Below are positions 8,360 through 63,650 of a stretch of DNA of 64,000 nt, one piece after another. Numbering within the stretch: position 1 is the stretch's first letter; each line of letters begins with the position of its first letter. This DNA is from Propionivibrio soli (GTDB lineage Bacteria > Pseudomonadota > Gammaproteobacteria > Burkholderiales > Rhodocyclaceae). The notes under the pieces were generated by a model. That model made no database searches. It saw only the letters and a list, made by a program, of their open reading frames with translations, and was not told where the DNA came from. The position numbers were made by a program, and so were the translations under genes. The stretch spans positions 124,001 to 188,000 of the forward strand of contig NZ_JANZKY010000004.1 in assembly GCF_025770765.1 (NCBI RefSeq), written 5' to 3'.

Positions 8360-8373
8360 GCAAGGAAGGCACC
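8360..8373 (-). promoter_or_regulatory. Candidate sigma-54 promoter for AI-2E gene
   Basis: The minus strand reads GGTGCCTTCCTTGC, with GG-N10-GC spacing and TTGC at -12 but a weaker -24 half. The predicted transcript start near 8348 leaves about a 100-base leader before ATG 8247. Confidence 0.45.
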
Positions 8374-9212
8374 CGGGCGCACACCCACGCCGATAGCCAT
8401 CGAGCCCGCCGGAGAGGATCGTGGCGTCAATCGCCTAATTACCTACTGAATTGCTCGGATTGCCGCGCGTTAGCGGGAAAAAGGGATCGAATCGTTTAGG
8501 GAAAGTCGAAAAAACGGCGTAAAGCAGGAGAATCTTGGCAATTAATGACAAAAAATACCGATTTTGTCAGGTTTATCGTCGATATCCAACCGAATATGGT
8601 CTCCTATCCGATTTTTTCGCTTCTCTTTCCGCGCCTCTGTTGATACGGCGTAGTAGAAAAACCAACTTCCGCCGCATCATTCAGCGTAATTTCTCTCCGC
8701 CGACACTTGACCGGCGAGTTTCTCGGCACTCTCCATGCTTTCGTTCTTTAGTACCCAGCCGACAGTCGACGATGCGACTTCTCGGCGGAATCCGGGTCCC
8801 TTTGAGCCATTGCATGCCTTCAGGCCCCGTAGAAATTTCGGTAAATTTTTCCACCCATCCGATGGGAGGGTTGGGTTTTTTCGTGTGTTTCGGTATTTCC
8901 TGCAGAGGAGGAAAAAATAGCGCGGAACAAACGCACCTCGTCTTCCCAGCCAGCTTTTGGCCTACGCCAGGGCCTTGCGGAAAGCCTTCGAAACAGACTC
9001 AATTTGTTCAGATCCCGTACTGGTGGGCCTTCGGCGCGATAGCAAAACAGTGCTACGTGTGGTCGGCACTGCCGCAATCAGCCGTAAACACTCAAATCTA
9101 GAACACCCGACCACCCGAGGACAACTTGTTTGTTTTTTATTTATAAAACAATAAGATAAAAACAAAGCAAGCCCAATTTCCGAAACTCTCGCCCCGCCAT
9201 CTCGAAAAAACT

Positions 9213-9226
9213 GGCATGGCGATTGC
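9213..9226 (+). promoter_or_regulatory. Sigma-54 promoter without a downstream protein gene
   Basis: TGGCATGGCGATTGCT matches the sigma-54 consensus at both halves (GGCAT, TTGCT). The expected start of transcription is near 9238. No open frame with a start codon follows; instead a GC-rich structure ending in a T-run does. Confidence 0.65.
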
Positions 9227-9237
9227 TCTATAGGAAA

Positions 9238-9318
9238 CAGCTCCGGGGCAACACACCGCCCGCTTGTCACCCTCCCCACCCCCCCCTCTTGAGCGGCTCG
9301 GGCCCGGAGCGATTTTTT
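9238..9318 (+). ncRNA. Candidate sigma-54-dependent small RNA of about 80 nt
   Basis: The predicted start from the promoter at 9213-9226 is near 9238. The first bases GCTCCGGG (9240-9247) are exactly complementary to CCCGGAGC (9303-9310), which is directly followed by GA and six T (9313-9318). This would form a closing stem with an intrinsic terminator. A shorter local hairpin GCTC/GAGC at the same 3' end is also possible. The interior is C-rich and single-stranded looking, with no ATG. This is prediction by eye; expression is unproven. Confidence 0.45.
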
Positions 9319-9599
9319 CCCCCTAGTTTTTTGGAAGGCCAGGAGTAGTCACAACCTTGTTGTCGGCTGCTTAGCGTCCACAAGCGCTCACGGAAGAGTA
9401 TCGTTTTGCTATCCTGCGCCGCCGTCAGCCAAGACGTGGCCAAGACGTTCCTGAATGGGCGGTTGGATGGCGGTGCCCGCGGCATGGTTACCAAGCGCGC
9501 GGCAAGCCCCGACCGGACGACAACCGCATCCGGTTGCCGGTCGGCTAGCACGAACCCAAGGGGGTGATTGGGGCTGGTTATACTCTCCCGCCCAAGAGG

Positions 9600-10820
9600 C
9601 TAATCGGGAGAGATCGGATAGGGAGCGCTCGGCACGGCAGCAGTGCCCATTGTCGCGCCAGGCGTGAGGACGACTTTCCGGCAGTTATCCTCCTTGCCAT
9701 CGAACATGGCATAGCCACGCGCCGCCTCGGAGAGCGGCATCTGATGCGTGATGATCTCCTCCGGATGCAGCTCGCCGTTCAGGATATGCGTCAGAAGCTT
9801 CGGCATATATTGCTGCACGTGCGTTTGCCCCATCTTGAAGGCCAGTCCCTTATCGAACGCATCCCCAAACAGGAAGGCGTGGATGAACCCGGCGTAGACG
9901 CCCGGAACGCTCACGGTTCCTCCCCGGCGCGTGGCGGCGATCGCTTGCCGCAAGGCAGCGCCACTGGAGCCTTCGAGCTTGAGGTTGGTCATCACCGTTT
10001 CGACCGTGCTGCCTTTCGCCTCAAAGCCGATAGCGTCGATCGTCGCGTCCACGCCGCGGAACTGCGTCTGGTCGATGATGTACTCGGCCGGGTCATCCAC
10101 CTCGTCGAAATTGATCGGGTCGACGCCGTACGTTTCCCTGGCGAAGTTGAGGCGGTACGGATGGTGGTCGATCATGAAGATGCGCTCGGCTCCGAGCAGG
10201 CGCGCGCACGCGGCCGCCATGCATCCGACGGGTCCGGCGCCGAAAATAGCGACCGTGGAACCGGGTCGTATGCCGGCGTTAACCGCTGCCTGGTAACCGG
10301 TTGGCAGGATATCGGAAAGAAACAGCACACGTTCGTCAGGCAAGCCTTCCGGGACAGCGAGCGGTCCGGTGTTGGCCCACGGAACGCGCACATACTCCGC
10401 TTGCCCGCCGGCATATCCGCCGTAAAGGTGCGTATAGCCGAACATACCGGCGCCGGGACGCAATGTTTTCTTGTTGATGATCGCGCCGCGGTTCGGGTTC
10501 GTCTCTTCGCACGCCGCGAACAGCGAACGTTCGCAGAAGTAACACGTGCCGCAGGAAATGGTGAATGGCACGACAACGCGGTCGCCGCGTTTGAGACGCG
10601 TGACCGCCGGCCCGACCTCCTCGACGATGCCCATGAACTCGTGCCCGAGAATATCGCCGTCCTTGAGCCCCGGCACTTTGCCGCGATAGAGGTGCAAATC
10701 GGAACCGCAGATCGCCGTCGCCGTCACGCGCAGGATGATGTCCTGCGGGTCGATCAGGCGGGGATCCGGTACGTCTTCCACCCGTACGTCGCGGTGGCCA
10801 TGGTAGGTCAGAGCTTTCAT
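9600..10820 (-). CDS. Zinc-dependent alcohol/formaldehyde dehydrogenase (MDR), first copy
   Basis: A 406-residue medium-chain dehydrogenase of the glutathione-independent formaldehyde dehydrogenase-like branch. Catalytic zinc ligands are seen in AICGSDLH (Cys38) and GHEFMG (His62-Glu63). A structural-zinc Cys cluster appears as CGTCYFC...AACE (about 92-107). The Rossmann loop [12 protein letters not shown] is near residue 190. It should oxidise an alcohol or aldehyde hydrate with NAD. It lies 36 bases behind the SDR gene on the same strand and is probably cotranscribed from the sigma-54 site at 11831. The gene at 32067-33290 is a paralogue with the same architecture. Confidence 0.93.
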
Positions 10821-10856: not shown

Positions 10857-11750
10857 TCAGGTATTCACGGTCTCGCCGCCGTTTGGATGCAGGACCTGGC
10901 CGGTCATGTAGCTCGCGTCGGAACTCGCCAGGAAGACGAACGACGGAGAAATTTCGTCGGGTTGGCCCGCCCGACCTAGTGTCGTGTCTTTGCCGAAGTT
11001 GGCGAGCTTCTCGCCCGAGAACGTGGACGGGATGAGCGGGGTCCATACCGGCCCCGGCGCCACGGCATTCACGCGAATGTTGCGGTCGGCCAGTTGGTGC
11101 GCCAGCGAACGCGTGAAGGCGACGATGGCCCCCTTGGTCGACGCGTAGTCCAGCAGTTGCGGGCTGCCGCGATAAGCGGTGATCGACGTCGTATTCACGA
11201 TCGCGCTTCCATCCGGCATATGAGGCAACGCCTCGCGGCAGAGGTCGAACATTCCGAAGAAATTGGTACGGAACGTCTGCTCAAGCTGCCCGCGCGAAAC
11301 CTGAGCGATGTCCTTCTGCGGATGCTGCTCGGCGGCATTGTTCACCAGCACGTCGATACGACCGAAGGCGTCGACCGTCTTGCGTACGATCTCGGTCACG
11401 AACGCCGGTAGGCCAATGTCGCCGGCAAGCAGCAGGCACCGCACGCCGGCGGCTTTTATCGCTTCTTCGGTCGCTCGCGCATCCTCGTGTTCGTTCAGAT
11501 AGACGATGGCGACGTTGGCGCCTTCCTTGGCGAAACAGATCGCCGTCGAGCGGCCAATCCCGCTGTCGCCGCCGGTAACGACCGCCACTTTGCCGCGCAG
11601 CTTGCCGCAACCGACGTAATCGCGTGCGAAGGAAGCGGAAGCCGGACGCATCTGCGCCTCTCGGCCAGGCTGAGTATCGAGGGTCGGCGGACGAGTGTTG
11701 GCGAGTTTCTCGCTGGCCTCGTGTTTCTGCGGCTGCTGCTCGTTGCTCAT
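10857..11750 (-). CDS. SDR-family oxidoreductase, YghA-like
   Basis: A 297-residue short-chain dehydrogenase with the N-terminal extension typical of the YghA/general-stress SDR group. The cofactor loop is TGGDSGIGRS (about 59-68), followed by NNAAEQHPQ, a Ser in VNTTSITAY and YASTKGA with Tyr-x-x-x-Lys near residue 201. The C-terminal TGQVLHPNGG is the usual end. It is the first gene of a two-gene unit with the zinc dehydrogenase downstream. A consensus sigma-54 promoter stands 81 bases upstream, back to back with the promoter of the AsmA gene. The substrate is unknown; relatives are induced by osmotic or oxidative stress. Confidence 0.93.
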   Translation of the reverse strand: MSNEQQPQKHEASEKLANTRPPTLDTQPGREAQMRPASASFARDYVGCGKLRGKVAVVTGGDSGIGRSTAICFAKEGANVAIVYLNEHEDARATEEAIKAAGVRCLLLAGDIGLPAFVTEIVRKTVDAFGRIDVLVNNAAEQHPQKDIAQVSRGQLEQTFRTNFFGMFDLCREALPHMPDGSAIVNTTSITAYRGSPQLLDYASTKGAIVAFTRSLAHQLADRNIRVNAVAPGPVWTPLIPSTFSGEKLANFGKDTTLGRAGQPDEISPSFVFLASSDASYMTGQVLHPNGGETVNT

Positions 11751-11830: not shown

Positions 11831-11844
11831 GCAAGGCCCATGCC
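11831..11844 (-). promoter_or_regulatory. Sigma-54 promoter of the SDR/dehydrogenase pair
   Basis: The minus strand reads GGCATGGGCCTTGC (GGCAT-N5-TTGC). The predicted start is near 11819, about 70 bases before the SDR ATG. Only ten bases separate it from the oppositely oriented site at 11855. Confidence 0.72.
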
Positions 11845-11854: not shown

Positions 11855-11868
11855 GGCATAAGGCTTGC
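11855..11868 (+). promoter_or_regulatory. Sigma-54 promoter of the AsmA gene
   Basis: GGCATAAGGCTTGC matches GGCAY-N5-TTGC. The predicted start near 11880 lies downstream of ATG 11840, which argues that AsmA translation begins at the later GTG 11921. Confidence 0.72.
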
Positions 11869-11920: not shown

Positions 11921-14335
11921 GTGCAGGCGAACGACAATCAACCAGAGAACTTCCGGGTGCCAAGAGAAGGGGGGGCCAACGGCCCCAATGCCCCGCACTC
12001 CACGCCTCCCATCCGTTATGCCGGACGCAAGTCGCCGCGCGGCCTCATCGTACTGGCCACACTGGTTGCCATCATCGCCGTCTGCGAATGGCTTGAATGG
12101 CCTTTCCTGCGCGCTCCTATCCAGTTAGCGGCCAGTTCGGCGCTCGATCGGCCGGTGACTGTCGGCGCACCGTTCGGCATGCGCTTTGTCGGCCCGCTCC
12201 GCGTGCATGCCGAAAGCCTCGTGATCGGACCGGCTTCCGATTGGCCGGCGGGGGCGCCTTCCCCCGATCTTCTCAATGCCGATCGCCTGCGTATCGCCGT
12301 ACCGTACACAACCTTGATCGCCCTGCTCTTGGGTCACGACCCAGGTCGCGGCAACGATTCCGCGAAATCCACCGATACAGGCAAGGGAGACTCTCGACAG
12401 ACGCCGCCAAACGCCGACGATAGGCGGCCGCACATCAAGGCGTTGGAGGTGGAACGCCTGCGCGTCAGTCTCGTGCGCACGGCGGACGGCCGCGCCAACT
12501 GGCATTTAGGAGAACAACGCGTCGACGATCAACCGCCGGCGGCCATTCCGCGCTTCGACCGCTTGGCGATCGACAAAGGCGAATTATCGGTGGACGATGC
12601 CGTCGGCCGTGTACACATCCGCGCGGAGTTGCGTACGCGCGAACAACCGGCAGAAGCCGGCCAAGCCGCTGGAGAGCCGGGGATCGAAGCCTCCGCCGAA
12701 GGCCGCTTCCGCGATCAGGAGCTCTGGGCCAGAGCCAGTGCCGGCGGCCTCTCGGCGTTGGCCGGATCGGGGAATGGTTCGGCGCAGGCACCGGTACGGA
12801 TCGAGTTCCGATCAGGTCCCGTCGAACTCGATTTCGACGGCTGGGCGCGCGACGTGCGCAATCTCGGCGGACTGGACGGCAAGTTCCGCCTCGCCGGTCC
12901 GTCGCTCGCTGCTGTTGGCGCCGTCGTCGGCCTCACCTTACCGACCACGGCCCAGTTCTCGATGCGCGGTCGCGCACGCAAGGAGGGCGAGGTCTGGTCG
13001 GCGGACATCGGTGAACTGGCCGTCGGTCGCTCGCGACTCGCTGGCGATTTCCGCTACGACCCGACACCGGCCGTCCCCAAGCTGACCGGCAAGTTGGGTG
13101 GCGCCCTGCTCTCGCTGCCCGATCTCGGGCCGGCTGTCGGTGCGCCGCCGACGAAACCCGGCGCGGGCAAGGAGAAAAGAACGGAGGACAAGGTTGCGGA
13201 GAACAAGAACGCAGAGGACAGACCCGCATCCTCGACAGAGAAATCGGCCGGGAACGATAAACAACGCGGGAGCGGGCAAACACAGGTTTCCGGATCGGCG
13301 GGCGCCGCTCCAAACGGCGGCTCCGAGGCTGGCCCGGCGGAACGCGACCCGAACGCCAAACGACCCGGGGACGAAGCCGCTGGCCATCGCACAACGCCTG
13401 CTCGGCGGGTTCTGCCGCAGAAGGAATTCAACACCCCTTCGCTTGCCGCGATGGAAGCCGACGTGCAAATCGAACTGCAAGAATTCGATCTCGGCACAGC
13501 GCAACTCGAAGAACTCAAACCGTTCCACGGTCACCTTACGCTCCATGACCGGGTACTGACGCTCGAAAAGCTCAAGGCCGGGGCGGCCGGCGGGGAAATG
13601 TCCGGCGTGATCAGTTTCGACGCCCGCGCCAAGACGCCGCAATGGAATGCCGATTTGGGTTGGGCGGGGGTTCAACTGCAGCGTTTCGTAAAGCCGCGCG
13701 ACGTCGTCGGCAGAGACCCACAAAGCGGCTACGTAAGCGGTGCCCTCAGTGGACGCGCCAGGCTTTCGGGTCACGGCCGATCGACTGCCGCGATTCTCGG
13801 ATCGCTCGACGGCGGCGTCCAACTTTGGGTGCGTAACGGCACAATATCGCATCTGCTTGTCGAAGCCCTCGGCATCGACGTTGCCCAAGCCCTCGGCGTT
13901 CTCGTGCGCGGCGACGCGCAACTTCAAATGAACTGCGCCGTAACGTCCATGAGCGTCCGCGACGGACGAATGGACCCGGACGTAGCGCTGATTGAAACGA
14001 AAGACAGCACGCTCACTACCACTGGTTTCATTTCGCTCGCCGATGAACGCCTCGGCCTCGAGTTCCGCGCGCACCCTAAGGATGTCTCACCGATGACCCT
14101 GCGCTCCCCGCTTTACGTCGAGGGGACGTTTTCCGATCCGGCGATCCGTATCGACAAGCGTCGTATCGGTCTGCGCGTGGCCGCCGCGGCCGCGCTGGCC
14201 GCTGTGACGCCGATCGCCGGGGCGCTCGCATTGATCGATCTCGGCGACTCGGAACGCGACGCATGCCAGAAAGCGTACGCTCGAGTACAAAGCCCGACTC
14301 CAGCCTCTCGCCCGGGCAACAGGACGCCGCGTTGA
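11921..14335 (+). CDS. AsmA family envelope protein
   Basis: The frame opens at 11624, but GTG 11921 is chosen: GGAG stands seven bases before it and the sigma-54 transcript should begin near 11880. This gives about 804 residues. One membrane anchor (about residues 35-55) is followed by a large periplasmic part with the AsmA start region (QLAASSALDRPVTVGAPFG). A Lys/Glu/Ser-rich disordered insert (about 420-490) comes next, then the C-terminal AsmA_2 module, which includes GGDA-like VRNGTISHLLVEALG and a final SPLYVEGTFSDP segment. AsmA relatives are bridge-like proteins that help move phospholipid between the membranes. It is divergent from the SDR gene. Confidence 0.9.
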   Translation: MQANDNQPENFRVPREGGANGPNAPHSTPPIRYAGRKSPRGLIVLATLVAIIAVCEWLEWPFLRAPIQLAASSALDRPVTVGAPFGMRFVGPLRVHAESLVIGPASDWPAGAPSPDLLNADRLRIAVPYTTLIALLLGHDPGRGNDSAKSTDTGKGDSRQTPPNADDRRPHIKALEVERLRVSLVRTADGRANWHLGEQRVDDQPPAAIPRFDRLAIDKGELSVDDAVGRVHIRAELRTREQPAEAGQAAGEPGIEASAEGRFRDQELWARASAGGLSALAGSGNGSAQAPVRIEFRSGPVELDFDGWARDVRNLGGLDGKFRLAGPSLAAVGAVVGLTLPTTAQFSMRGRARKEGEVWSADIGELAVGRSRLAGDFRYDPTPAVPKLTGKLGGALLSLPDLGPAVGAPPTKPGAGKEKRTEDKVAENKNAEDRPASSTEKSAGNDKQRGSGQTQVSGSAGAAPNGGSEAGPAERDPNAKRPGDEAAGHRTTPARRVLPQKEFNTPSLAAMEADVQIELQEFDLGTAQLEELKPFHGHLTLHDRVLTLEKLKAGAAGGEMSGVISFDARAKTPQWNADLGWAGVQLQRFVKPRDVVGRDPQSGYVSGALSGRARLSGHGRSTAAILGSLDGGVQLWVRNGTISHLLVEALGIDVAQALGVLVRGDAQLQMNCAVTSMSVRDGRMDPDVALIETKDSTLTTTGFISLADERLGLEFRAHPKDVSPMTLRSPLYVEGTFSDPAIRIDKRRIGLRVAAAAALAAVTPIAGALALIDLGDSERDACQKAYARVQSPTPASRPGNRTPR

Positions 14336-15431: not shown

Positions 15432-15445
15432 GGCACTCTATTTGC
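15432..15445 (+). promoter_or_regulatory. Sigma-54 promoter of the small 96-residue protein gene
   Basis: GGCACTCTATTTGC matches GGCAY-N5-TTGC. Predicted start near 15457, leaving a leader of about 130 bases before ATG 15588. Confidence 0.7.
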
Positions 15446-15587: not shown

Positions 15588-15878
15588 ATGATGGGCCAAC
15601 GCGATTATCAGGAGCTACCTCAGGATGGCGGAGGTTTCGTGCCGCTGAGTGCGGCTGGACGTCAGTATCCCGCGTCGGGTGTTTTGCCGAACGTTGATGT
15701 GTTGGCGGCGGCCCCGACCGGAATGGCCGATATAGCGGATTCCGACAACCGCCCGGCAAAATCGCCGCAAACCCGATTCAATACTGGGTGCGGCCAATGG
15801 CGTAGCGTTTTCGATCAAGTGGACGCGACACCCGCCCCAACTCGTATTCCGACGCCTCAAGTCGAAAGCAGCCTCTAG
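15588..15878 (+). CDS. Small protein of unknown function
   Basis: A 96-residue protein without recognisable domain, signal peptide or membrane segment; it is rich in Pro, Ala, Gln and Asp. Three things support a real gene: GGAAAGGA stands five to eight bases before ATGATG, a consensus sigma-54 promoter lies about 145 bases upstream, and a textbook intrinsic terminator follows the stop within 31 bases. The transcription unit is thus monocistronic. The function is unknown. Its place between other presumed sigma-54 targets suggests a stress or envelope role, which is inference only. Confidence 0.6.
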   Translation: MMGQRDYQELPQDGGGFVPLSAAGRQYPASGVLPNVDVLAAAPTGMADIADSDNRPAKSPQTRFNTGCGQWRSVFDQVDATPAPTRIPTPQVESSL

Positions 15879-16122: not shown

Positions 16123-17601
16123 TCAAGCGTGTTTGCGGCGCCGCTCGAAGGCCTCGATGTGCAGCAACTGTCTGTACTTCGTCACTGTCCGCCGGGCGAC
16201 GATGATGCCCTGGCGCGCCAGCTGGCGTGCGATCTCCGCGTCCGACAGCGGCGCATGCGAGCGTTCGGAATTGATCATGTCGCTGATCAAACCACGGATC
16301 GCCGTCGCCGAGCATTCGCCGCCGCTCGCGGTCGTCATGGCACGTGAGAAGAAGTATTTCAACTCGAAGACGCCCAGCGGCGTCGCCATGAACTTGTTGT
16401 TGGTGACGCGCGAAACGGTCGATTCGTGCACACCAACCTCGTCGGCGATCTCGCGCAACCCGAGCGGCTTCATCGCCAGCGGGCCGTACTCCAGGAAGTT
16501 CTTCTGATGGTTCACGATCGCCTGCGAAACGCTGAGGATCGTGGCGAAGCGCTGCTCGACGTTGCTAACGGTCCAGCGCGCTTCCATTAGATGCGCGGCA
16601 AGTTCGGAGTGCTGCGCGTTGCGGTTGCGCTGGAACATCTCGGCGTAGACGTGATTGAGGCGAACGCGCGGGACGATCGACGGGTTGAGTGTCGCGGTCC
16701 AATTGCCGCGCACCTTCTTGACGATCACATCGGGCGTTACGTACTGCACGTGAGACGAGCCGAATCGCCATCCTGGGCGCGGGTCAAGGCGGCGGATCGA
16801 TTCGAGGACTGATTCGACCTCGGCCGGTGAAGCTGACAGACGCCGCGCCAGTCCGGCCACGTCCTTCGCCGCCAGGAGTTGCAGGTACTTGTCGATAATC
16901 GTATGCGCAAGTTCCTGCTTGATGGGGTCGGCGATCACGGGCACCTGCAACAGCAGGCACTCCTGGACGCTGCGCGCCGCGACGCCGGCCGGTTCGAGCG
17001 ACTGCACGCGCGAGAGGGCAATGCGCAGCTCCTCTTCGGTCGGCCGCGGGTCAAGCCCCGCGATGTCGACGAGGTCCGGAAGCGAAAAACGCAGATAACC
17101 GTCATCGTCCAGCGAACCGACGATGACTTCGGCAATCGCCCGATCGCGCTCGGTGAGCGGCAATACGTTGAGCTGGCGCAGCAGGTGATCGCTGAGCGAA
17201 TCCTCGACGGCGTGCATTTCCATCAGGTTGGCGCCGCTGTCGTCGTTGCGACGATTGCTCGAGATGCCGTCGGCCTGCCAGGTTTCGCGATCGCTGTCGA
17301 TGTCATCGCCAGCCGTCGTTTCGGCTTCGTTCTCGACGGGCGGAACCTCGACCACTTCCTGCACCGTGGGAGCCGTCTCTACCGGGAAGGGGCGCTCCAG
17401 TTCGTCGGCGGTTTCGACCTCTTCGGCCGGATTCTCGATATCCGGCTCGTCGGCTTCGAGGAACGGATTCTTGTCCAGCGTTTCGTGCACTTCCTGGGCG
17501 AAGTCGAGTGATGACAACTGCAACAAGCGCACAGCACGCTGAAGGCGTGGGGATAGTCCTTGCTGCTGGCGATGTTCCATGCCAAGCGTAAGCGATCTCA
17601 T
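16123..17601 (-). CDS. rpoN: RNA polymerase sigma-54 factor (RpoN paralogue)
   Basis: ATG 17601 is chosen because AGGAGG stands seven bases before it, giving 492 residues, the normal family length. Region I is Gln/Leu-rich (QQQGLSPRLQRAVRLLQLSS) and binds activator and core. The acidic region II covers about 55-120, the core-binding domain about 130-310, and the helix-turn-helix about 370-400 (EIADEVGVHESTVSRV). The C-terminal RpoN box reads ARRTVTKYR near residue 476 and contacts the -24 element. Sigma-54 needs an AAA+ activator to open DNA. The usual housekeeping neighbours (lptB, hpf, ptsN) are absent, so this looks like an extra paralogue. A consensus sigma-54 promoter lies upstream. Confidence 0.95.
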   Translation of the reverse strand: MRSLTLGMEHRQQQGLSPRLQRAVRLLQLSSLDFAQEVHETLDKNPFLEADEPDIENPAEEVETADELERPFPVETAPTVQEVVEVPPVENEAETTAGDDIDSDRETWQADGISSNRRNDDSGANLMEMHAVEDSLSDHLLRQLNVLPLTERDRAIAEVIVGSLDDDGYLRFSLPDLVDIAGLDPRPTEEELRIALSRVQSLEPAGVAARSVQECLLLQVPVIADPIKQELAHTIIDKYLQLLAAKDVAGLARRLSASPAEVESVLESIRRLDPRPGWRFGSSHVQYVTPDVIVKKVRGNWTATLNPSIVPRVRLNHVYAEMFQRNRNAQHSELAAHLMEARWTVSNVEQRFATILSVSQAIVNHQKNFLEYGPLAMKPLGLREIADEVGVHESTVSRVTNNKFMATPLGVFELKYFFSRAMTTASGGECSATAIRGLISDMINSERSHAPLSDAEIARQLARQGIIVARRTVTKYRQLLHIEAFERRRKHA

Positions 17602-17758: not shown

Positions 17759-17772
17759 GCAACGATGATGCC
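17759..17772 (-). promoter_or_regulatory. Sigma-54 promoter of rpoN (autoregulatory)
   Basis: The minus strand reads TTGGCATCATCGTTGCTTTT, an excellent match to the -24/-12 consensus including the T-run after TTGC. Predicted start near 17747, leader about 145 bases. Confidence 0.75.
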
Positions 17773-18287
17773 AACTGCTGAAACAGTTATCCCTAGTGCA
17801 TTGACCCGTTATCCAAGCCATTGAGAGATCAGGCAATTGCAGGACCATTAGGGCGCCTTCGCTCGCTCTTGGCGCTCTTAGCTGAACTTTGATTCCATGA
17901 AGCGGGTGGCTCTGCCCGCGCGAATATCAACGGCTTTTGCGGCAAGAATTACACCGGGGCCCCGGATCGATGCCCGCTATGCCTCACCACGCAAGGCTTT
18001 TCGGGGATCGGCGAAGAAAAGGCCCAGGACTCGAAACCGTGGGGAGACGAGAAGAGAGGAGAAGAGAACGGGTACGGGCTGGCCCTCGCGGACGGTAAGA
18101 AACAAACACACAGGCTGTCCTCCTAGCGTGAAATCGGCATGCGACCGCATTTGCCCCGAGCGCTTCTGGTATGTCATAGGAATTCCAACGGAGACGCGCT
18201 CCGCTCAAGGGCGTGATGAGCACCGCGTTATGCGCTTCCCACGGCATGCTCTTCCCTCGCTGAAATCCCCGCACGAGCCCCCTCCGC

Positions 18288-18301
18288 GGCACGGCGATTG
18301 C
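18288..18301 (+). promoter_or_regulatory. Sigma-54 promoter of the hemerythrin gene
   Basis: GGCACGGCGATTGC matches the consensus through GGCACG and TTGC. Predicted start near 18313, leader about 55 bases. Confidence 0.75.
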
Positions 18302-18367: not shown

Positions 18368-19072
18368 ATGCCCTCCCGTCAAACCAACACAAGCGCAACG
18401 TCACGCAGCCGCGCCAGCAGCAACCGCGCGGGCGCTGCCGCCCGCAATGAGATCCTTTCGATGCTCAAGGACGACCATAAGGAAGTGAAAAAACTCTTCC
18501 GCCAGTTCGAGAAACTCGACGTGCATGAAGATGCCGAGGAATGCGAAGCTTTGGTCAAGCAGACCTGCCAAGCGCTTGAGATGCACGCGACACTGGAAGA
18601 GGAAATCTTCTATCCGGCGGCACGCAGCTGCCTGGGCGAAGAAGACGTCGTCGACGAAGCCGAAGTCGAACACATGTCGGCCAAGATGCTCATCGAGCAA
18701 CTGAAGGGCATGACGCCCGACGACGAGAAATACGCGGCGACGTTCAAGGTTCTCGGCGAATACATCAAGCATCACGTCAGTGAAGAAGAAAACGAGATGT
18801 TCCCTCAACTTTCGCACGCCAAGCTCGACTGGCAGGAACTCCAGGAAGAGATGAACGAGCGTCGCGAAGCGCTCATGGACGAAATGCAATCCGGCAGCAA
18901 GAAGAGCGGCGCCTCGGCCAAGAGCGACAGCAGCTCAGCGTCGCGCGACATGCAGAAAAACCGGGGTAGCGAAAAGGATAGTGGAAAGTCATCGGACCGC
19001 TCTGCGAGCCGTTCATCGGGAGAGGATCTCGGAGAAGAGTCGATCAACGACACCGGACTCGACGAAGGCTAA
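18368..19072 (+). CDS. Hemerythrin HHE-domain protein
   Basis: The frame is open from 17897, but ATG 18368 (AAGGAG six bases before it) begins the real protein of 234 residues. An HHE cation-binding four-helix bundle occupies about residues 25-165. Candidate iron ligands are visible in DDHKEVKKLF, HATLEEEIFYP, EVEHMSAKML and HHVSEEENEMFP. The last 70 residues are a Ser/Lys/Asp-rich disordered tail. Such proteins bind a di-iron centre and are linked to oxygen, NO or oxidative stress handling. It is monocistronic: a sigma-54 promoter precedes it and an intrinsic terminator follows. Confidence 0.93.
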   Translation: MPSRQTNTSATSRSRASSNRAGAAARNEILSMLKDDHKEVKKLFRQFEKLDVHEDAEECEALVKQTCQALEMHATLEEEIFYPAARSCLGEEDVVDEAEVEHMSAKMLIEQLKGMTPDDEKYAATFKVLGEYIKHHVSEEENEMFPQLSHAKLDWQELQEEMNERREALMDEMQSGSKKSGASAKSDSSSASRDMQKNRGSEKDSGKSSDRSASRSSGEDLGEESINDTGLDEG

Positions 19073-20261: not shown

Positions 20262-20405
20262 GGCTCTCTCCTTTTGAAACGGTGGAAGGCATCAGCGCCT
20301 TGCCGATGCGCATGGCTGCAGTATATTTACGACATTGCCGCTCCAGTTGTGGTCATTTTTCCTCATATAGTTTCCAATAATTCTCCAATAAAAGGGCAGG
20401 ACCTC

Positions 20406-21341: not shown

Positions 21342-21510
21342 ACGACTTTCCCCTCGCCACTATTCCGCGACGTCCGGCTGCGGCCGCACGGCTAGCCGAA
21401 ATATTTCTTGTTTTCCGGTAATCCGATTTTCATTTGCCTCGTTCAACATATGAGGGGCTTCGGTTTTCGAGGCTTCCGATAGCGCACCGAACAACCGCAA
21501 GAGCATGTGA

Positions 21511-21826: not shown

Positions 21827-21929
21827 CTGCCGCCCCGGCGCACCGAGCGGCAGCATCGAAACCAACCACCGGACATCCGCGCCGGACGGTCGAGGAGGCG
21901 ACTCCCCGGCCGCGCCGGCTTTTACGCAC

Positions 21930-27055: not shown

Positions 27056-27058
27056 AGC

Positions 27059-31063: not shown

Positions 31064-31993
31064 TCAGGTGGCCGATCGGACTTCGGGCGCTTGCTCGCGG
31101 GCATGCTGGTCGTACTCGTCGCTGATCCGCCCCAACGCCGCGCCATAAAGGAGAATCTGCGCCGAGTAGTTGATCCACAGCATGAGCACCACGAACGATC
31201 CGGCGGCGCCATAGCTCGATGCCACGGACGAACGCCCGAGGTAGAAGCCGATCAGCGACTTGCCGATGGTGAACAACACCGCCGTGGCAATCGCCGAAAT
31301 CCAGACGCCCTTGCGGGTCGGCGGTGTGTCGGGAAGCCAACGGACGAGCGCAGCAAACGCGACGCTGAGGACGGCCATCGAGACCGCAATGTCGATCAGG
31401 GTGGCGAGAACGCCGAGGCCGGCGTAATGCGCAGACATGTAATTGCTGAAAGCGGCCAGCACCGCGCTCAGAAGCAGCGAGGCGATGGCCAGGAAACCGC
31501 AACCGAGCAGCAAGGCAAATGCCGTAAGGCGCACTCGCAGAAAGGTGCCGATCGTCGATTCCGGAGGTTGTACCTTACCGATGAGATTCAGCGTGCGGCG
31601 AAGTTCGACAAATGCGCCGCTGGCACCGATGAGCAAGGTTCCGGTGCCGATCAGCGCCGCGCGCAAGCCTCCGGGTTCCTGCCAGGCCGACTTGATCATG
31701 GCTTCGATGGCGCGTGCCGCCAGCGGCCCGACGAGTCCCTCGATCTCACCAACGATCTGACCCCGCGCGGCTTCAGGGCCGAAGACGGCACCGGCCACCG
31801 CGATGGTGATCACCAGCAGCGGCGCCAGCGCGAACATCGTATAGAAGGCGATTGACGCGGACAGTTGCGGCGCGCTCGCCTCCACCCAGCGAGCGCCGGC
31901 ATCGACCGCCAGTTGAATCGGATAGCGGATCGGCCGCGGTATGGCGGCCCAGATCCGGCTCTTCAGCTTCCCGAAGTCGATGCTCATCCCCAT
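31064..31993 (-). CDS. YihY/BrkB family membrane protein
   Basis: A 309-residue protein with six membrane helices and the family features ISAxxIAFYTMFALAPLLVI (about 45-64), GPLAARAIE and VASSYGAAGSFVVLMLWINYSAQILLYGA (about 250-278). YihY was once called ribonuclease BN, a misassignment; the family is now described only as an inner-membrane protein of unknown transport or envelope function. The gene is located between the formaldehyde dehydrogenase-like gene and the DUF1264 gene, all on the minus strand. It might be read from the dehydrogenase promoter. Confidence 0.93.
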   Translation of the reverse strand: MGMSIDFGKLKSRIWAAIPRPIRYPIQLAVDAGARWVEASAPQLSASIAFYTMFALAPLLVITIAVAGAVFGPEAARGQIVGEIEGLVGPLAARAIEAMIKSAWQEPGGLRAALIGTGTLLIGASGAFVELRRTLNLIGKVQPPESTIGTFLRVRLTAFALLLGCGFLAIASLLLSAVLAAFSNYMSAHYAGLGVLATLIDIAVSMAVLSVAFAALVRWLPDTPPTRKGVWISAIATAVLFTIGKSLIGFYLGRSSVASSYGAAGSFVVLMLWINYSAQILLYGAALGRISDEYDQHAREQAPEVRSAT

Positions 31994-40442: not shown

Positions 40443-40562
40443 CGGTTCGGCCCTCGTTCAGGTCGTCGGGGTCAGCAGGGAGTAAAGCCATCGGCACTGG
40501 CGCGACGCAAAGCGCAAAAAAGACGCTCCAACGCCAACGCATGCGCTCACCGCACAGCGAAG

Positions 40563-40576
40563 CAACCGGCATGCCC
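40563..40576 (-). promoter_or_regulatory. Sigma-54 promoter of UXS
   Basis: The minus strand reads GGCATGCCGGTTGC (GGCAY-N5-TTGC). Predicted start near 40551, leader about 110 bases. Confidence 0.72.
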
Positions 40577-40614
40577 TGGCTCCGACCTCCAGGCCCGCGC
40601 TTGGTTCCGGGCAG

Positions 40615-40628
40615 GCACGCGCGTTGCC
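40615..40628 (+). promoter_or_regulatory. Sigma-54 promoter of the GT4 gene
   Basis: GGCACGCGCGTTGC matches GGCACG and TTGC. Predicted start near 40640, leader about 100 bases to ATG 40741. Confidence 0.74.
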
Positions 40629-44813: not shown

Positions 44814-44827
44814 GCAAACGGCATGCC
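44814..44827 (-). promoter_or_regulatory. Sigma-54 promoter of the GT4/deacetylase operon
   Basis: The minus strand reads GGCATGCCGTTTGC (GGCAY-N5-TTGC); predicted start near 44802. Confidence 0.7.
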
Positions 44828-44885: not shown

Positions 44886-44899
44886 GGCACGATATCTGC
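44886..44899 (+). promoter_or_regulatory. Sigma-54 promoter of the DUF2383 gene
   Basis: GGCACGATATCTGC has a perfect GGCACG and spacing, with CTGC in place of TTGC. Predicted start near 44911, leader about 127 bases. Confidence 0.6.
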
Positions 44900-51339: not shown

Positions 51340-51349
51340 CGGCGCTCCG

Positions 51350-53304: not shown

Positions 53305-53798
53305 AGGACCCCGCTTTCCGGCCGCAAAACGCCGCCATCCGGAAAACCTTCGCGGGCAGAACGAACCACTCTGTCGTTCCGTCCGTAGATTTTTCCTGAT
53401 GCAACGGCTCCCCGTCGATTATTCGGTGAAAACGTCGGCAACGGCCGGAATGCCAGGCGCCCGGACCGGAGCCCTCGGTTCTTCTGCATGGGTGACGATC
53501 CCCTATCGTTTCGTTTGCGAATGCTTTTCGCTCTCGGTCTCGGAGAGCGGGTGTTCGGACCGGTGATAGGCAAACGTCGTGCCGACCGCTGACGGAGTCT
53601 GGCCGGCTTGCTTGCTACGTGCGGGAAACGGCGCCTGAAGCGGCAAACGAAGGGAGCGAAGCAAAAGGAGAACGAACAAAAGGTGCTAGGTGCCGAGTTT
53701 GGATGCGGAGGGCGTCGGCCCTCTCGCGCTCTCTCTCGTCATGCCACCTGAATCGGAGCGTCGCTTGCGCCCGCTCCAACAAACCAAAGGCTACAGAG
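53305..53798. other. Leader region of the heptose/carbamoylation operon
   Basis: The 494 bases between the HAD gene and the PRC-barrel gene hold a consensus sigma-54 site (53570-53583, minus). The 250-base leader that would result has no supported gene; a 90-codon minus frame (53301-53573) overlaps the promoter and is not credible. Confidence 0.55.
53570..53583 (-). promoter_or_regulatory. Sigma-54 promoter of the HAD-GT9-carbamoyltransferase-GT9 operon
   Basis: The minus strand reads GGCACGACGTTTGC (GGCACG and TTGC). Predicted start near 53558, leader about 255 bases. Confidence 0.65.
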
Positions 53799-54248: not shown

Positions 54249-54758
54249 TACATCAGCTCCTCAACTTTCTCCTCGATAACTTATCCGCCGTGACGGAACA
54301 CCACGGCCTACGGCTCGTCCCTCGCCTAGCCCGCATCAAGCGCCACCGGCTGACGCTATGCTCTCGGGTTGGCACGGTGATGTCGTACGATACATAATCG
54401 CCATGCCTCAAAAGCGCCGCTCCGCCAAAAGGCGCTCTGGTAATTCCCTGCTGCTCCACGAAGCACCAACTGATGGATGACAAGGGAGCCGGCCTCCGGT
54501 CATCCGATCAGTAACTTCCTTGTTGGTATCCTCAGATGGATCTAGCGTAAAGATGACCATGGTGATACGGACACATATCAGCGTCGGCCGCATGGCGCAC
54601 GCAACCCATACGACGACCTTTCGCCGCGCGGGAAGAACTCTAGTCGCCGATCACTGTCAAGCACCGACCACGCCGGTGCCCGAGGCTCGTAGCAATTGGC
54701 GTGCCCGTGAGCCGATTTTCGCTGTTCCGGGAACCGCCCTTGCCCTGATTACGCGACC
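54249..54758. other. Intergenic region before the hybrid kinase gene
   Basis: The 510 bases contain no supported gene. A GG-N10-GC site at 54730-54743 lies too close to the kinase ATG to be trusted. Nothing else was recognised. Confidence 0.55.
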
Positions 54759-57828: not shown

Positions 57829-58392
57829 CTACGTGCCGTCGCCAGTACGTCGTACACCTTTGCCGCCCTCGATGACGGGATTCTCTTCCGCCGCCTCGAG
57901 GTCATCTGAGCTGGAGGACGAAGTGCCGCGGCGGCCTTCGGCGTAACCTTCAGCCCCAATCTCATCGTCCACGTCACCGGATTCGTCGGCATTGAGGTCG
58001 ATATCGACGTCGCCGGCGGATTCCGCGTCATCGGCCGTCGTGCTGTCGAGCGTATCGAGCGCCTCCAGGTCATCCTCGGCGTCGATCACCTTGTCGGGAG
58101 ATATGTCGGGCGCATCAGTGGGGGCCGCATCGCCGGCGGCTGTCGACCGTTCCCCGGTGCCCCCGGCGTCCGAGTCGGCACCTACGCCGAAGTCCTCGAA
58201 CGACGGATCGGTCCGTTCGGCATCCGGGTCCATCGCCACGTCGGTCGGCACGGCCGGATCACGCCCTTGATCGTTTTCGATGCCCGCAACGTCGCTGCCG
58301 CTGTCCGACGTGTCGCTCGGCCCGAGCGCACGGTTGTCGTGGCCCGGCGGGGGCGTCGCCGGCGTTTCACCCCCCAGAATGCTACTTGCCAT
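57829..58392 (-). CDS. Highly acidic disordered protein
   Basis: A 187-residue protein dominated by Asp, Glu, Ala, Gly, Ser and Thr, without hydrophobic core or cysteine. Asp-rich stretches such as DVDIDLNADESGDVDDE suggest metal binding or hydration-type protection, which is inference. GAGGAACC stands before the ATG. A consensus sigma-54 promoter lies 52 bases upstream and shares a 13-base block with the promoter of the D-x-DY-xxW protein at 14385. It lies between the hybrid kinase and RecQ genes, convergent with the kinase. Confidence 0.75.
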   Translation of the reverse strand: MASSILGGETPATPPPGHDNRALGPSDTSDSGSDVAGIENDQGRDPAVPTDVAMDPDAERTDPSFEDFGVGADSDAGGTGERSTAAGDAAPTDAPDISPDKVIDAEDDLEALDTLDSTTADDAESAGDVDIDLNADESGDVDDEIGAEGYAEGRRGTSSSSSDDLEAAEENPVIEGGKGVRRTGDGT

Positions 58393-58443: not shown

Positions 58444-58457
58444 GCAAGCCCTATGCC
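58444..58457 (-). promoter_or_regulatory. Sigma-54 promoter of the acidic protein gene
   Basis: The minus strand reads GGCATAGGGCTTGC (GGCAY-N5-TTGC). Predicted start near 58432, leader about 40 bases. Confidence 0.72.
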
Positions 58458-61032: not shown

Positions 61033-62217
61033 TCAGCTTACCGATCCGGGGTTCGCTGCCGTCGTTGGCGTCGAGGACGCAGGGGAAACGCCGACGTGGC
61101 CTGCCCGCCCGGTGCTCAACGGCACACCGGTCTCTGCGGACGATGGCCGCTGCACCGGGGGAGGTGCCGCCTCCTCCGACGCGGCGGTATGCGCCGTGTC
61201 GACCAGCGCTTCCACGTCGTACCCCTGCCCGCGCGCATAGTCGATCATGCGCTGCCGCGCGCCACTCTCAAGCGAGGGCGAACGCGAGAGCAGCCAGAGC
61301 CGGCGCCGGTCCGGTGTGCCGACCAGCGCGTACCGGTAGGCATCATCGACGAGCAACATCAGGTAATCATGGCGGAACGCGGGCAGCCAACGCACAAGGC
61401 GCGGGGCGAACGACACCTTGAGGTGCGCATTGCCGCTGCCGGCGACGAGGAGCGCTATTCCGCGCGCCGCGTGTATGCGCCCATCCGCGTAGCGGCAACG
61501 TTCGGTGACCGCGATGACCGGACGCGCACCCTGCCCCGGAACCACGGCGTAGTCGCTGGTGACGTCGCTGGCGCAGCGCTTCTCGTACGAATTGGGGAGG
61601 CGCGCGATCTCGTACCAGCGTCCGAGGTAACGCGCCAGATCGACAGGCCCTGCCGTAGACACCGGCGGCAACACTGGCGCTTTTCGGGCTACAGCCCGCT
61701 GCACCCGCGCTCCGAGGCCGTTTGCCGAACCTGCTCCACTCTCGGCCTGCGAAGCGGTTGCACGCTTGCGGGCGAGCCATTCTCCGATCGCAGGCATCAC
61801 CATACCGAGCAGCAGCGCCGGTAGGCCACCGCGGGCAGCGCGACCTCCGGCCAGCACCGGAACGAAGGCCGAAAGCGCGCCGAGGATGCCAAGGAGGCGG
61901 GAGCCTCGTCCTCTGCTGCCCGGCCGTACAGGGTGCCCACGATGGCGGGAGAAAAGCAACCGGCCGAGCAGCACGGCACCGCTGCCGGCAATCGCCAGAC
62001 CGATTCCGCCCTTTGAACGGACCCGCTCCTTGACGGTGCGCACGCCTTCCCGTACGCGTTCATCGCGTGCAATGACGGCGAGTTCGGCGGCGCGGATGCG
62101 CTCGTCGATATCGAGTTTTTCGTCCAGCGCTTTGGCCCGGGACGAGGACAGAGCGTGATCCTGACCGGTAGCGAAGGTCGCGCGTCCAAGTGCAGCCGAC
62201 CGAGGAGCTTCGTTCAT
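61033..62217 (-). CDS. YqjK-like membrane segment fused to a bacterial lipocalin (Blc-like)
   Basis: A 394-residue protein. Residues 1-70 are a charged helix (EKLDIDERIRAAELAVIARDERVREG), followed by hydrophobic segments at about 70-88 and 108-145, like the small YqjK/DUF3618-type proteins. A linker leads to a full lipocalin (about 185-345). Its hallmark is RYLGRWYEIARLPNSYEKRC, followed by TERCRYADG and DDAYRYALVGTPDRRRLWLLSRSP. A Pro/Ser-rich tail ends the chain. Bacterial Blc is normally a separate outer-membrane lipoprotein that binds fatty acids or lysophospholipid; here it would be held at the inner membrane. ATGA overlap with the YqjE gene fixes the start. Confidence 0.88.
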   Translation of the reverse strand: MNEAPRSAALGRATFATGQDHALSSSRAKALDEKLDIDERIRAAELAVIARDERVREGVRTVKERVRSKGGIGLAIAGSGAVLLGRLLFSRHRGHPVRPGSRGRGSRLLGILGALSAFVPVLAGGRAARGGLPALLLGMVMPAIGEWLARKRATASQAESGAGSANGLGARVQRAVARKAPVLPPVSTAGPVDLARYLGRWYEIARLPNSYEKRCASDVTSDYAVVPGQGARPVIAVTERCRYADGRIHAARGIALLVAGSGNAHLKVSFAPRLVRWLPAFRHDYLMLLVDDAYRYALVGTPDRRRLWLLSRSPSLESGARQRMIDYARGQGYDVEALVDTAHTAASEEAAPPPVQRPSSAETGVPLSTGRAGHVGVSPASSTPTTAANPGSVS

Positions 62218-62738
62218 CGCGTGACCTCCCCTCTCGTCTGCCCGCTGTCTACACCTGGCGTTCGCGAATTCGCCTCAACTTTGTCGGCGTCCGGGATATG
62301 GGAAGGTGCGAGCGTCAGGCGCCGCATCGTGGCCGGCAGCGTCAGATCGTCAACCAGCGCCGCCGCGCGCCCGATTGCGATCCAGGCGCCTAAGCCGTTG
62401 AGCACGAGAATCAGCGCAAACGCGCCGTACCAAGGCACGCCGAGTGCCAGCAGAATCACCGTCACCAGCGCCCATAGCGCGACCCATGCCGTGGCGGCGA
62501 GGATCGATGCCAGGACCACGAGCACGGCCATGCGCGCGAACGAGCCGCGGGCGCGACGCAGTTCGAGCGCAAGAAGGAGAACGCGGTCGCTGATCAGGCC
62601 GGGCAGGTCATGCCAGAGCGAAACCAGCAATTGCGCCACCGACGGTTCTGCCGTTTGCTCCGACGTTGTCCGCCTGCGCCAAAAACGACGCTGCCCCGGC
62701 GCGCCGTCGGCACCGGCGCTCTCCTCCCGTTCCATCAT
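62214..62738 (-). CDS. yqjE: YqjE-like phage holin family protein
   Basis: A 174-residue protein with two central membrane segments (about 70-95 and 100-125, including VLVVLASILAATAWVALWALVTVILLAL split by a short turn). It begins with a cytoplasmic helix QLLVSLWHDLPGLISDR, the family hallmark of YqjE/phage-holin superfamily 3. In Escherichia coli yqjE lies between yqjD (DUF883) and yqjK, and the same order is kept here. The role is unknown, although YqjD/ElaB relatives bind ribosomes at the membrane in stationary phase. It starts three bases behind the DUF883 stop and overlaps the next gene in ATGA. Confidence 0.9.
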   Translation of the reverse strand: MMEREESAGADGAPGQRRFWRRRTTSEQTAEPSVAQLLVSLWHDLPGLISDRVLLLALELRRARGSFARMAVLVVLASILAATAWVALWALVTVILLALGVPWYGAFALILVLNGLGAWIAIGRAAALVDDLTLPATMRRLTLAPSHIPDADKVEANSRTPGVDSGQTRGEVTR

Positions 62739-62741
62739 GCG

Positions 62742-63050
62742 TCAGCGGACCAGCAAGCGGCCCAGCAGCATGCCGGCGGCGATCGCCACGCCGACGGAGA
62801 GAATCGGATGCTCACGCACGCAGCCGCGGCATTCTTCGAGCCAGCGTTCCTGCATTGCGTCGAGTTCCTCGATCGTGTGATGCAGCGCTTCGCCGGCCGC
62901 ATTGACGCGACCGCGGATATTCTCGACGGCGGGCCCGGCCTTCTCGGCAACGCGATCGACGGCGGCATGCGCGCCTTCGGCGGCGCGGTTGACGGCGCTT
63001 TCCGCAGCGGCGGCGGTGTCGGAACTGATGGTCGGATTGGATGTAGTCAT
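62742..63050 (-). CDS. yqjD: DUF883 (YqjD/ElaB family) membrane-anchored protein
   Basis: ATG 63050 with GGAG six bases before it gives 102 residues. Residues 5-80 form an amphipathic Ala/Glu-rich helix (AAAAESAVNRAAEGAHAAVDR), followed by CVREHPILSVGVAIAAGMLLGRLL, the C-terminal hydrophobic anchor of the family. YqjD and ElaB are inner-membrane, stationary-phase proteins that tether ribosomes in Escherichia coli. This is the first gene of a five-gene run. A consensus sigma-54 promoter stands 115 bases upstream, whereas the E. coli operon depends on RpoS; that difference is notable. Confidence 0.92.
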   Translation of the reverse strand: MTTSNPTISSDTAAAAESAVNRAAEGAHAAVDRVAEKAGPAVENIRGRVNAAGEALHHTIEELDAMQERWLEECRGCVREHPILSVGVAIAAGMLLGRLLVR

Positions 63051-63650
63051 GGTGTTCTCCATTAAGTTGCGAACCGGGGCGTCGAGCGCCAGCGGTAAAC
63101 GGGTGGTTGGTGGATGAGCGGCGCCGGGCTGAACCCGCCGGAACCCGCGTCGCAACCGCTTTAGGCAAACGGTGTGCCGCGCCAACGAAAAAAAGCAAGC
63201 AGGCTCGCGAAGCGGCCCGCATTGCGTCATCGGAACGGCGGTCGTCGACCGGATGCTGGCCGACATCGATGAAACTTATCGCCCCAATCCGCGCTCAATG
63301 TCCTCTGAGTTGCGCACCGGCAATTGTCATAACGGCGCCATGCCGAGAAGGTATTCATCATTAAGTTTTTCTGGAGGGAATCTGCTCACTCGACCCGAGA
63401 GCATAGAACTCGCTCGGAGCGCCCGAAGCCATGGTCGCCACCGTATTCCCCTCAATGACGCAACGCTGGTTTTTTCGGTAACTTTTACGTTATCCTCTTG
63501 TGAACCTCGCCTACTTTGGGGTCGGTTCTGAGCGTGCTCTTCTTCGCCCAGTCCGCATCACCCTTTTGACATCATGGGGCAGGCTCCCCGGACAGCGCAC
63601 CCCGCTCTCGACAGTCCCAGCCTTCCCCCTTACGAGGAGAAACACTTACG
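63051..63650. other. Control region between the DUF883 operon and the response-regulator gene
   Basis: This 600-base divergent gap holds the sigma-54 site at 63165-63178 (minus). Upstream of the regulator gene the sequence becomes AT-rich (63450-63500, T-runs and TTATCCT), a possible housekeeping promoter. No gene is supported. Confidence 0.55.
63165..63178 (-). promoter_or_regulatory. Sigma-54 promoter of the DUF883 operon
   Basis: The minus strand reads GGCACACCGTTTGC (GGCAY-N5-TTGC). Predicted start near 63153, leader about 100 bases. Confidence 0.73.

Follow-up and report, generated by a model that had tools for sequence, protein, structure and literature searches.

The 64,000-nt stretch of Propionivibrio soli DNA analysed here (the window; positions 124001-188000 of contig C31, NZ_JANZKY010000004.1, in a genome of 4.757 Mb and 36 contigs) contains numerous sigma-54 promoter-like sites, in the midst of which lies rpoN2, a gene for a second sigma-54 factor. 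It is likely, with a probability of approximately 0.78, that the surrounding island, by which we mean the DNA between roughly 9 and 112 kb in window coordinates, encodes a second sigma-54 circuit consisting of RpoN2, variant promoters, a linked activator and a two-step cascade. The observations behind this view are the enrichment of the sites and their linkage to the island, the replication of the arrangement in relatives, the existence of two site classes, distinctive residues on the contact surfaces of RpoN2, and the co-occurrence of RpoN2 with the activator. A dedicated sigma-54 island for stress and envelope functions had already been proposed by an earlier, sequence-only reading of the window, and the proposal is supported by the presence of an own RpoN paralogue, a linked activator and an arrangement that recurs in relatives; the key gene, rpoN2, had been overlooked amid its sites. 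The central elements are the following (window coordinates):

16123..17601, minus strand: rpoN2, second sigma-54 factor, 492 amino acids (aa), with PF00309, PF04963 and PF04552 above their cut-offs
17759..17772, minus strand: promoter-like site of rpoN2, class B, 157 bp before the ATG, with T before GG and T after TTGC
17937..17945, no strand assigned: palindrome TTGCGGCAA, candidate enhancer upstream of rpoN2
63651..64000, plus strand: start of the activator gene (519 aa; REC, sigma-54 AAA+ and Fis helix-turn-helix (HTH) domains; PF00072, PF00158, PF02954), which ends at about 65207

The pattern GGCAY-N5-TTGC has 15 exact matches in the window, compared with 1.51 +/- 1.10 in 100 dinucleotide-preserving shuffles of the same DNA (maximum 4; none of the 100 reached 15), whereas the density in the genome outside the window predicts approximately 1.7 (P = 4e-10). 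Only 12 matches had been counted before; all of these exist, two of them one base away from their reported positions (40562 and 40614 rather than 40563 and 40615), and the additional ones are at 13871(+), 31510(-) and 54692(-). For the extended form GGCAY-N5-TTGCC, 18 of the 58 copies in the genome fall inside 100 kb of the 4.76 Mb (P about 1e-16), which answers in the negative the question of whether random regions would match the density of the island. The sites have a -24 GG and a -12 GC separated by 10 bp and lie 5′ of genes, as expected of sigma-54 promoters, and the GG-N10-GC geometry described by the sequence-only reading is present; shuffles, own-genome density and relatives all confirm that the sites are genuine. 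As a rule, T does not precede GG in the island sites, and C follows TTGC in 18 of 23, which makes most of them variants of the textbook consensus. In total, 23 exact sites lie between 9213 and 111624, and just two in the 69 kb preceding 9213. The island is coherent, as had been suggested, and its true size is about 103 kb instead of 55 kb.

The same picture emerged from a matrix whose training set was 115 sites from relatives alone, rpoN2-own promoters excluded. Sites of at least 15 bits number 20 in the 103.7-kb island versus two in 170.3 kb of other P. soli DNA, and four were found in 959.9 kb around ordinary rpoN genes. Nearly all of the island matrix sites (19/20) are intergenic, and 16/20 are correctly oriented and no more than 300 bp upstream of a gene, compared with a background of 6.7%; gene calls for site placement came from our own script and not from a standard caller. 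By these calls, 10 of the 12 sites listed earlier are correctly oriented within 300 bp of a gene, one fewer than the 11 that had been placed 5′ of genes. Lowering the threshold to 10 bits shrinks the contrast: the island then has 47 matches, shuffles give 12.9, and the 140 kb of P. soli DNA flanking it has 30, so that each weak site taken singly is doubtful. Five of the six weaker sites proposed before score 10.6-12.7 bits, and that at 8360 stays below 10 bits.

RpoN2 has all three sigma-54 domains complete (activator-interacting, core-binding and DNA-binding) and also exceeds the cut-offs of NCBIfam NF009118 and TIGR02395. Its RpoN box, ARRTVTKYRQ, is of the recognisable ARRTVAKYRE type with two changes common to its clade. 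The genome has two rpoN genes, rpoN2 among the sites and rpoN1 on contig C5, whose products are about 44% identical. Relatives were collected by a scan of one genome per species across 84,980 species, and among the best 80 of at least 585, 25 are 54-66% identical to RpoN2 and the other 55 are 38-44% identical. The 25 clade loci belong to Azohydromonas, Aquabacterium, Rubrivivax, Ramlibacter, Methylibium, Hydrogenophaga, Roseateles, Schlegelella and Rhizobacter, the remainder being metagenome bins, one of them labelled only Proteobacteria. A quick tree was built from 116 RpoN proteins, leaving out two duplicates (L013 and L163) and one truncated protein (L165); in it, RpoN2 falls in a group of 29 (support 100 by the quick method) made up of the 25 loci, the P. 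soli RpoN2, genome G054, a Comamonadaceae plasmid protein and a Variovorax protein. The P. soli RpoN2 sits inside this clade at an unresolved fork that includes Azohydromonas, and RpoN1 groups among its own genus; several long branches make finer placement unsure.

No full-length RpoN2 match of at least 50% identity was found in 27 same-genus genomes, several of which are incomplete; one of them (G012) has a 96-residue RpoN2 remnant at 75% identity. Because of this absence and of the clade placement of RpoN2, the comparison suggests that rpoN2 was acquired by horizontal gain. The truncated remnant (L165, at about 3976-4311 of G012:C18) has no exact sites in its 12 kb, and among island proteins only RpoN2 and, weakly, a GGDEF-PAS protein matched there. 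A plasmid origin was considered and set aside, as the PLSDB plasmid matches of RpoN2 all stayed below 60% identity; the nearest plasmid RpoN in the tree comes from the Comamonadaceae plasmid CP099607.1, which carries rpoN and the activator gene as divergent neighbours.

The sites recur together with this clade. The 25 rpoN2-clade loci (494.6 kb) contain 111 exact sites versus 18.4 expected and 74 TTGCC sites versus 5.9, whereas the 55 other rpoN loci (971.6 kb) contain 56 versus 29.7 and 17 versus 7.7, respectively; Variovorax L103 was counted among the 55 and, once the tree had placed it in the RpoN2 clade, no longer served as an ordinary-rpoN control. TTGCC counts exceeded the reversed-pattern control in 24/24 genomes, none of which is known to be without a second rpoN, so this result was not counted as evidence.

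Two site classes can be distinguished in the clade. C follows TTGC in 72/89 sites that do not precede rpoN2, compared with 2/22 of those located at most 250 bp before rpoN2 (G 11, A 8, C 2 and T 1; Fisher 5e-10), and T before GG is found in 6/89 regulon sites versus 23/53 sites near ordinary rpoN genes. We infer that RpoN2, and not RpoN1, uses the TTGCC sites. Upstream DNA is available for 24 clade loci (L066, which has none, was excluded from these counts), and 20 of them show an exact site within 400 bp upstream of rpoN2; in P. soli that site, at 17759, is not among the matrix sites of at least 10 bits. The palindrome TTGC-N-GCAA occurs within 700 bp of rpoN2 in 15/24 clade loci, which include close kin (three Azohydromonas and two Rhizobacter).

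The surfaces of RpoN2 that would contact promoter and activator are distinctive as well. The RpoN box reads TVTKYR[QH] in 25/25 clade loci versus [IV]AKYR[ED] in 81/82 ordinary ones, the HTH is flanked by the clade marks T401N/S, Q402N and loss of R409, and region I, which contacts the activator, has Q19R, I24V and L/M47F fixed in the clade and L34F nearly so. The activator encoded from 63651 has the features of a sigma-54 response regulator (bacterial enhancer-binding protein, bEBP), with GSFTGA as its loop. The best-match activator loci (L125-L146) all have GSFTGA (22/22), whereas of the paralogues in that set six have GAFTGA and one gave no motif; among 12 other strong activators of the P. 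soli genome, 10 have GAFTGA, one GAYTGA and one no motif. It was reported that GSFTGA is an active loop variant elsewhere (PMC4641369), and the motif is written as GAFTGA/GSFTGA in PMC11999139. The best 25 of 103 matches to named NCBIfam families (AtoC, NtrC, PEP-CTERM response regulator, ZraR and others) were all below the equivalog cut-off, with scores of 403.4 of 714 for AtoC, 382 of 558.6 for NtrC and 353.7 of 502.6 for PEP_resp_reg.

Across 300 genomes of the order, P. soli included, the activator was present in 13/14 genomes with at least two RpoN matches versus 17/286 others (P 8e-14), with five candidates scored per genome and cut-offs (E at most 1e-100 for RpoN and at most 1e-115 for the activator) that were chosen after earlier results. 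Both genes share a contig in at least 15 of the 30 activator genomes, at distances of 1.4 to 47.5 kb, and lie on separate contigs in G292. Since the paired RpoN proteins include divergent ones (42-45% identical), the RpoN-activator pairing appears to be a wider family than the RpoN2 clade itself. The linked activator is a candidate for the partner of RpoN2.

The proposed circuit may work as follows. RpoN2 would bring RNA polymerase to promoters of a variant -24/-12 type, in most cases GGCAY-N5-TTGCC, whose targets are predicted to be some 16 to 20 stress or envelope genes or operons in the ~103-kb island, together with candidates elsewhere in the genome. The response-regulator activator (gene from 63651, GSFTGA) most likely opens these promoters on a signal from a sensor kinase. 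The rpoN2 gene itself differs in site class and has its own palindromic upstream element, so another sigma-54/activator pair probably turns it on; RpoN1 with a further activator would be the simplest such pair. Such a two-step cascade controlling rpoN2 would follow the same order of events as in Ralstonia solanacearum, in which an rpoN1 mutant lost rpoN2 expression (PMC4371752).

Several findings weigh against this circuit or parts of it. Within the island, the site scans gave no convincing site between about 19 and 32 kb; this part is possibly inserted or independently regulated cargo (19230-31993). Among TTGCC sites outside the island, 32 of the 38 scored also reach 15 bits (40 exist; C5:116242, inside rpoN1, and C31:64922 were not scored), because nearly all exact TTGCC sites score high, and thus the matrix distinguishes regions by density and not single real sites from chance. 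For the cascade, the sequence support is weak: the P. soli rpoN2 site, with T at both positions, is consensus-like, whereas those of relatives carry T before GG in just 3/22 and favour G (11) or A (8) over the consensus A/T, which means that they are not plain RpoN1 or textbook sites either; two Rhizobacter rpoN2 promoters have C after TTGC, 4/24 assessable clade loci have no exact site before rpoN2, and rpoN2 may conceivably be autoregulated. The palindrome is neither enriched at regulon sites (P 0.24) nor in excess in the genome (108 versus 103 for the reversed control), and was rejected as a regulon-wide enhancer and retained for rpoN2 alone. Searches with k-mers and dyads revealed no shared enhancer upstream of the regulon sites; the strongest gapped pairs resembled neighbouring promoters, and a common regulon enhancer was rejected.

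The specificity of the protein marks is also not absolute. The RpoN-box T occurs in second copies outside the clade (Burkholderia and G030), and in two Burkholderia stretches, near copies of each other, TTGC is followed by G 13, T 7 and C 4 times (n=24) and GG is preceded by C in 20/24, as if the site rule had shifted together with its factor. The orthologue of the activator on a P. sabiae plasmid has GAFTGA, and G054 possesses RpoN2 together with only a GAFTGA activator fragment. Because AcoR of R. solanacearum, whose ethanol pathway requires rpoN1, has GSFTGA (PMC4676750), possession of this loop is not enough to identify an RpoN2 partner. Finally, RpoN2 of R. solanacearum complements an Escherichia coli rpoN mutant and restores growth on dicarboxylates (PMC4676750), and RpoN2 of Burkholderia pseudomallei likewise restores an E. 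coli rpoN mutant (PMC4745423); by analogy, insulation of the two factors may be incomplete, with some overlap.

Of the other explanations, the one that survives best, although we regard it as improbable, is that RpoN1 serves these genuine sigma-54 sites and that the extra copy, RpoN2, is drifting or antagonistic and lies in the island by coincidence. The same genome does contain rpoN1, and it was reported that R. solanacearum rpoN2 mutants have no phenotype in the tested conditions, leading to the proposal of an antagonistic role (PMC4676750). Yet the site clusters track rpoN2 across 25 loci, most of the sites share C after TTGC, T before GG is rarer among them than at sites near ordinary rpoN genes, and rpoN2 is intact, with three domains and with contact surfaces conserved within the clade. 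More improbable still is a single sigma-54 pool in which the factors are interchangeable and rpoN2 just raises dosage under stress. The complementation of E. coli by the Ralstonia and Burkholderia proteins would agree with one pool, whereas the low identity to RpoN1, the clade-specific region I, HTH flank and RpoN box, the two site classes, and the report that RpoN1 and RpoN2 of R. solanacearum are not interchangeable (PMC4676750) argue against it. An enrichment due to composition or chance in a GC-rich region is scarcely credible. In its favour, the pattern is short and GC-rich and matches 139 times genome-wide versus 102 for its reversed form; against it stand the dinucleotide shuffles, the own-genome density, a matrix trained elsewhere, the intergenic placement and orientation of the sites, and a comparison with 170 kb of other own DNA in which no equal density was found.

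The sites in the window, the predicted target genes behind them and exact matches within genes are as follows:

9213..9226, plus strand: site, 18.2 bits; only a 70-aa open reading frame (ORF) downstream, no convincing gene
9600..10820, minus strand: zinc-type alcohol dehydrogenase, probably co-transcribed with the short-chain dehydrogenase (SDR) gene
10857..11750, minus strand: SDR gene, followed on the same strand by the dehydrogenase gene 9600-10820
11831..11844, minus strand: site, 19.9 bits; 80 bp before the SDR gene
11855..11868, plus strand: site, 16.6 bits; 52 bp before the AsmA-family gene
11921..14335, plus strand: AsmA-family protein; 5 loci, own included, have together 6 genes like it behind sites
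13871..13884, plus strand: exact match, probably fortuitous, within the AsmA gene
15432..15445, plus strand: site, 15.1 bits; before a 96-aa ORF (15588-15878)
18288..18301, plus strand: site, 18.6 bits; 66 bp before the hemerythrin-domain gene
18368..19072, plus strand: hemerythrin HHE-domain protein; 7 loci, own included, have genes like it behind sites
31510..31523, minus strand: exact match inside a BrkB/YihY-family gene, probably chance
40562..40575, minus strand: site, 16.2 bits; 119 bp before an NAD-epimerase family gene (39420-40442)
40614..40627, plus strand: site, 17.8 bits; 113 bp before a glycosyltransferase (40741-41904)
44814..44827, minus strand: site, 20.4 bits; before a glycosyltransferase (43506-44801)
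44886..44899, plus strand: weak site (CTGC), 10.6 bits; 138 bp before a DUF2383 gene (45038-45502)
53570..53583, minus strand: site, 18.2 bits; 286 bp before a HAD hydrolase (52615-53283)
54692..54705, minus strand: site, 17.9 bits; 572 bp before a PRC-barrel gene (53799-54119), a long distance
58444..58457, minus strand: site, 18.8 bits; 51 bp before a 187-aa protein (57829-58392) without known family
63165..63178, minus strand: site, 19.3 bits; 114 bp before a DUF883-type gene (62742-63050)

In the further contig sequence, exact sites beyond the window are at 68023(-), 72254(-), 73312(+), 92623(+), 103600(-), 106685(-), 109005(-) and 111624(-), in window coordinates. The genes behind the island sites encode a hemerythrin, AsmA, an SDR with an alcohol dehydrogenase, an NAD-epimerase, three glycosyltransferases, a HAD hydrolase followed by glycan-type genes (48275-52618), DUF883, PRC-barrel and ferritin-like proteins, a DksA/TraR zinc finger, two DUF1328 proteins, a GGDEF protein and proteins without known family. 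The recurring site-linked genes of relatives, whose clusters were named by likeness to island proteins run against Pfam, are DUF2383-like (12 in 10 loci, which supports the weak site at 44886), hemerythrin-like (7), AsmA-like (6), PRC-barrel-like (5), glycosyltransferase (5) and a cluster that we take to be CBS-like (4). Judging from these gene families, a role in stress tolerance is predicted. The 96-aa ORF at 15588-15878 has a ribosome-site-like sequence and an end near a terminator-like hairpin, and it was not picked by the gene caller. Outside the island, 14/38 sites have a downstream ORF of at least 50 aa with a ribosome-site-like sequence, including CsbD, two OsmC, a short-chain dehydrogenase and an aldehyde dehydrogenase. 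In Rubrivivax, katE lies directly behind a TTGCC site, in agreement with the decreased katE expression of a B. pseudomallei rpoN2 mutant (PMC4745423); no PF00199 catalase was found in the P. soli genome (99.8% complete), and catalase was thus rejected as a target there.

A small-RNA-like structure had been suggested behind the site at 9213. Its fold is no better than that of shuffles (z -0.79) and Rfam gave no match in the window, so the suggestion was rejected as unsupported; 3′ of this site, a C-rich stretch is followed by a T run (9237-9322). The site-poor stretch 19230-31993 contains genes for a LysR regulator, an oxidoreductase, a transporter and a GGDEF-hemerythrin protein, and a 976-aa open frame spans the window start (-748 to 2182, plus strand). 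Long genes at ~81-91 kb and 119-123 kb (L006 to L008), in or near the island, have no convincing sites of their own and presumably encode maltooligosyl-trehalose/glycogen enzymes and Ku/LigD, assigned partly by likeness to the Burkholderia locus L157. Elsewhere in the genome, contig C34 (93522-140250, L200-L202) carries a second loose group of five TTGCC sites, with a divergent site pair before an SDR gene and another site before an OsmC gene.

A broader interpretation, which we hold tentatively and rate somewhat below even odds, is that many Burkholderiales possess a horizontally spread, largely insulated second sigma-54 channel made up of RpoN2, a GSFTGA activator and promoters shifted at -11. 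It would run a general stress and envelope response from one island and be switched on by RpoN1, and the sigma surfaces facing DNA and activator would have changed together with the activator loop; such a channel might play, through sigma-54, a part like that of the general stress responses run by RpoS and EcfG. RpoS and EcfG, unlike sigma-54, require no ATP-driven activator, and if the interpretation is true, general-stress genes would be under a sigma factor that does. If the channel is insulated, it would also provide a natural experiment in the joint change of a sigma factor, its promoters and its activator. Mutants of second rpoN genes have given little in the accessible reports (no role seen in Ralstonia and reduced katE in B. 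pseudomallei), and the island gives such a gene a concrete regulon, a site rule departing from the consensus mainly at one base, and a linked activator with a distinctive loop, and hence a testable job.

With regard to known systems, a second rpoN was reported to be common in multi-replicon betaproteobacteria (PMC4371752), and such genes have been published for Ralstonia and Burkholderia (PMC4371752, PMC4745423). No description of the island was found in the accessible open-access literature, and among the entries listed for the low-oxygen-activated (lxa) locus and the pC3 stress literature, considered as candidates, no match to it was seen. The sequence-only reading had stated that the island corresponds to no system known by name; the island does appear to be a dedicated one, and precedent exists in specialised RpoN paralogues. 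From its sequence, it is best filed as a real, conserved and functional-looking member of such systems with an unusually clear clustered regulon. In Rhodobacter (Cereibacter) sphaeroides, RpoN1/RpoN2 and RpoN3-AprX represent paralogues each with its own activator, and the -11 base sets promoter choice, a precedent for the rule on the base after TTGC (PMC3162934, PMC11999139). That organism belongs to Alphaproteobacteria and its paralogues serve nif, flagella or one repressor gene, whereas the P. soli island has clustered stress and envelope targets and mostly C after TTGC. Another specialised copy, RpoNp of Bradyrhizobium, is linked to stress pathways (PMC13207237).

Likenesses are also found within Burkholderiales. 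By its published description, R. solanacearum rpoN2 (RSp1671), a second rpoN in this taxonomic order, has the adjoining activators Rsp1667/Rsp1668, both with GSFTGA (PMC4676750), and an upstream TGGCAC...TTTGCA site (the promoter reads TGGCACAGCCTTTGCA) with rpoN1-dependent expression (PMC4371752); its role is called enigmatic, and the accessible parts of these papers describe no regulon island (PMC4371752, PMC4676750). The second RpoN of B. pseudomallei is likewise needed for full stress-gene expression, the difference being that katE and two metabolic proteins, and no regulon, are reported in the text available (PMC4745423). Two Burkholderia loci (L157 and L158) have a comparable island, in whose sites TTGC is mostly followed by G or T and GG preceded by C, and in L157 two activator genes adjoin, both with GSFTGA. 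In Burkholderia multivorans (NZ_CP020399.1, about 290-339 kb, a plasmid-type replicon), RpoN is 42% and the activator, with GSFTGA, 59% identical to those of P. soli; this RpoN lies outside the P. soli clade (quick tree, long branches) and G or T mostly follows TTGC, whereas many kinds of island genes match, namely DUF1328, PRC-barrel, DUF4142, SDR, alcohol dehydrogenase and BON, along with glycosyltransferases, a carbamoyltransferase and a HAD hydrolase by annotation.

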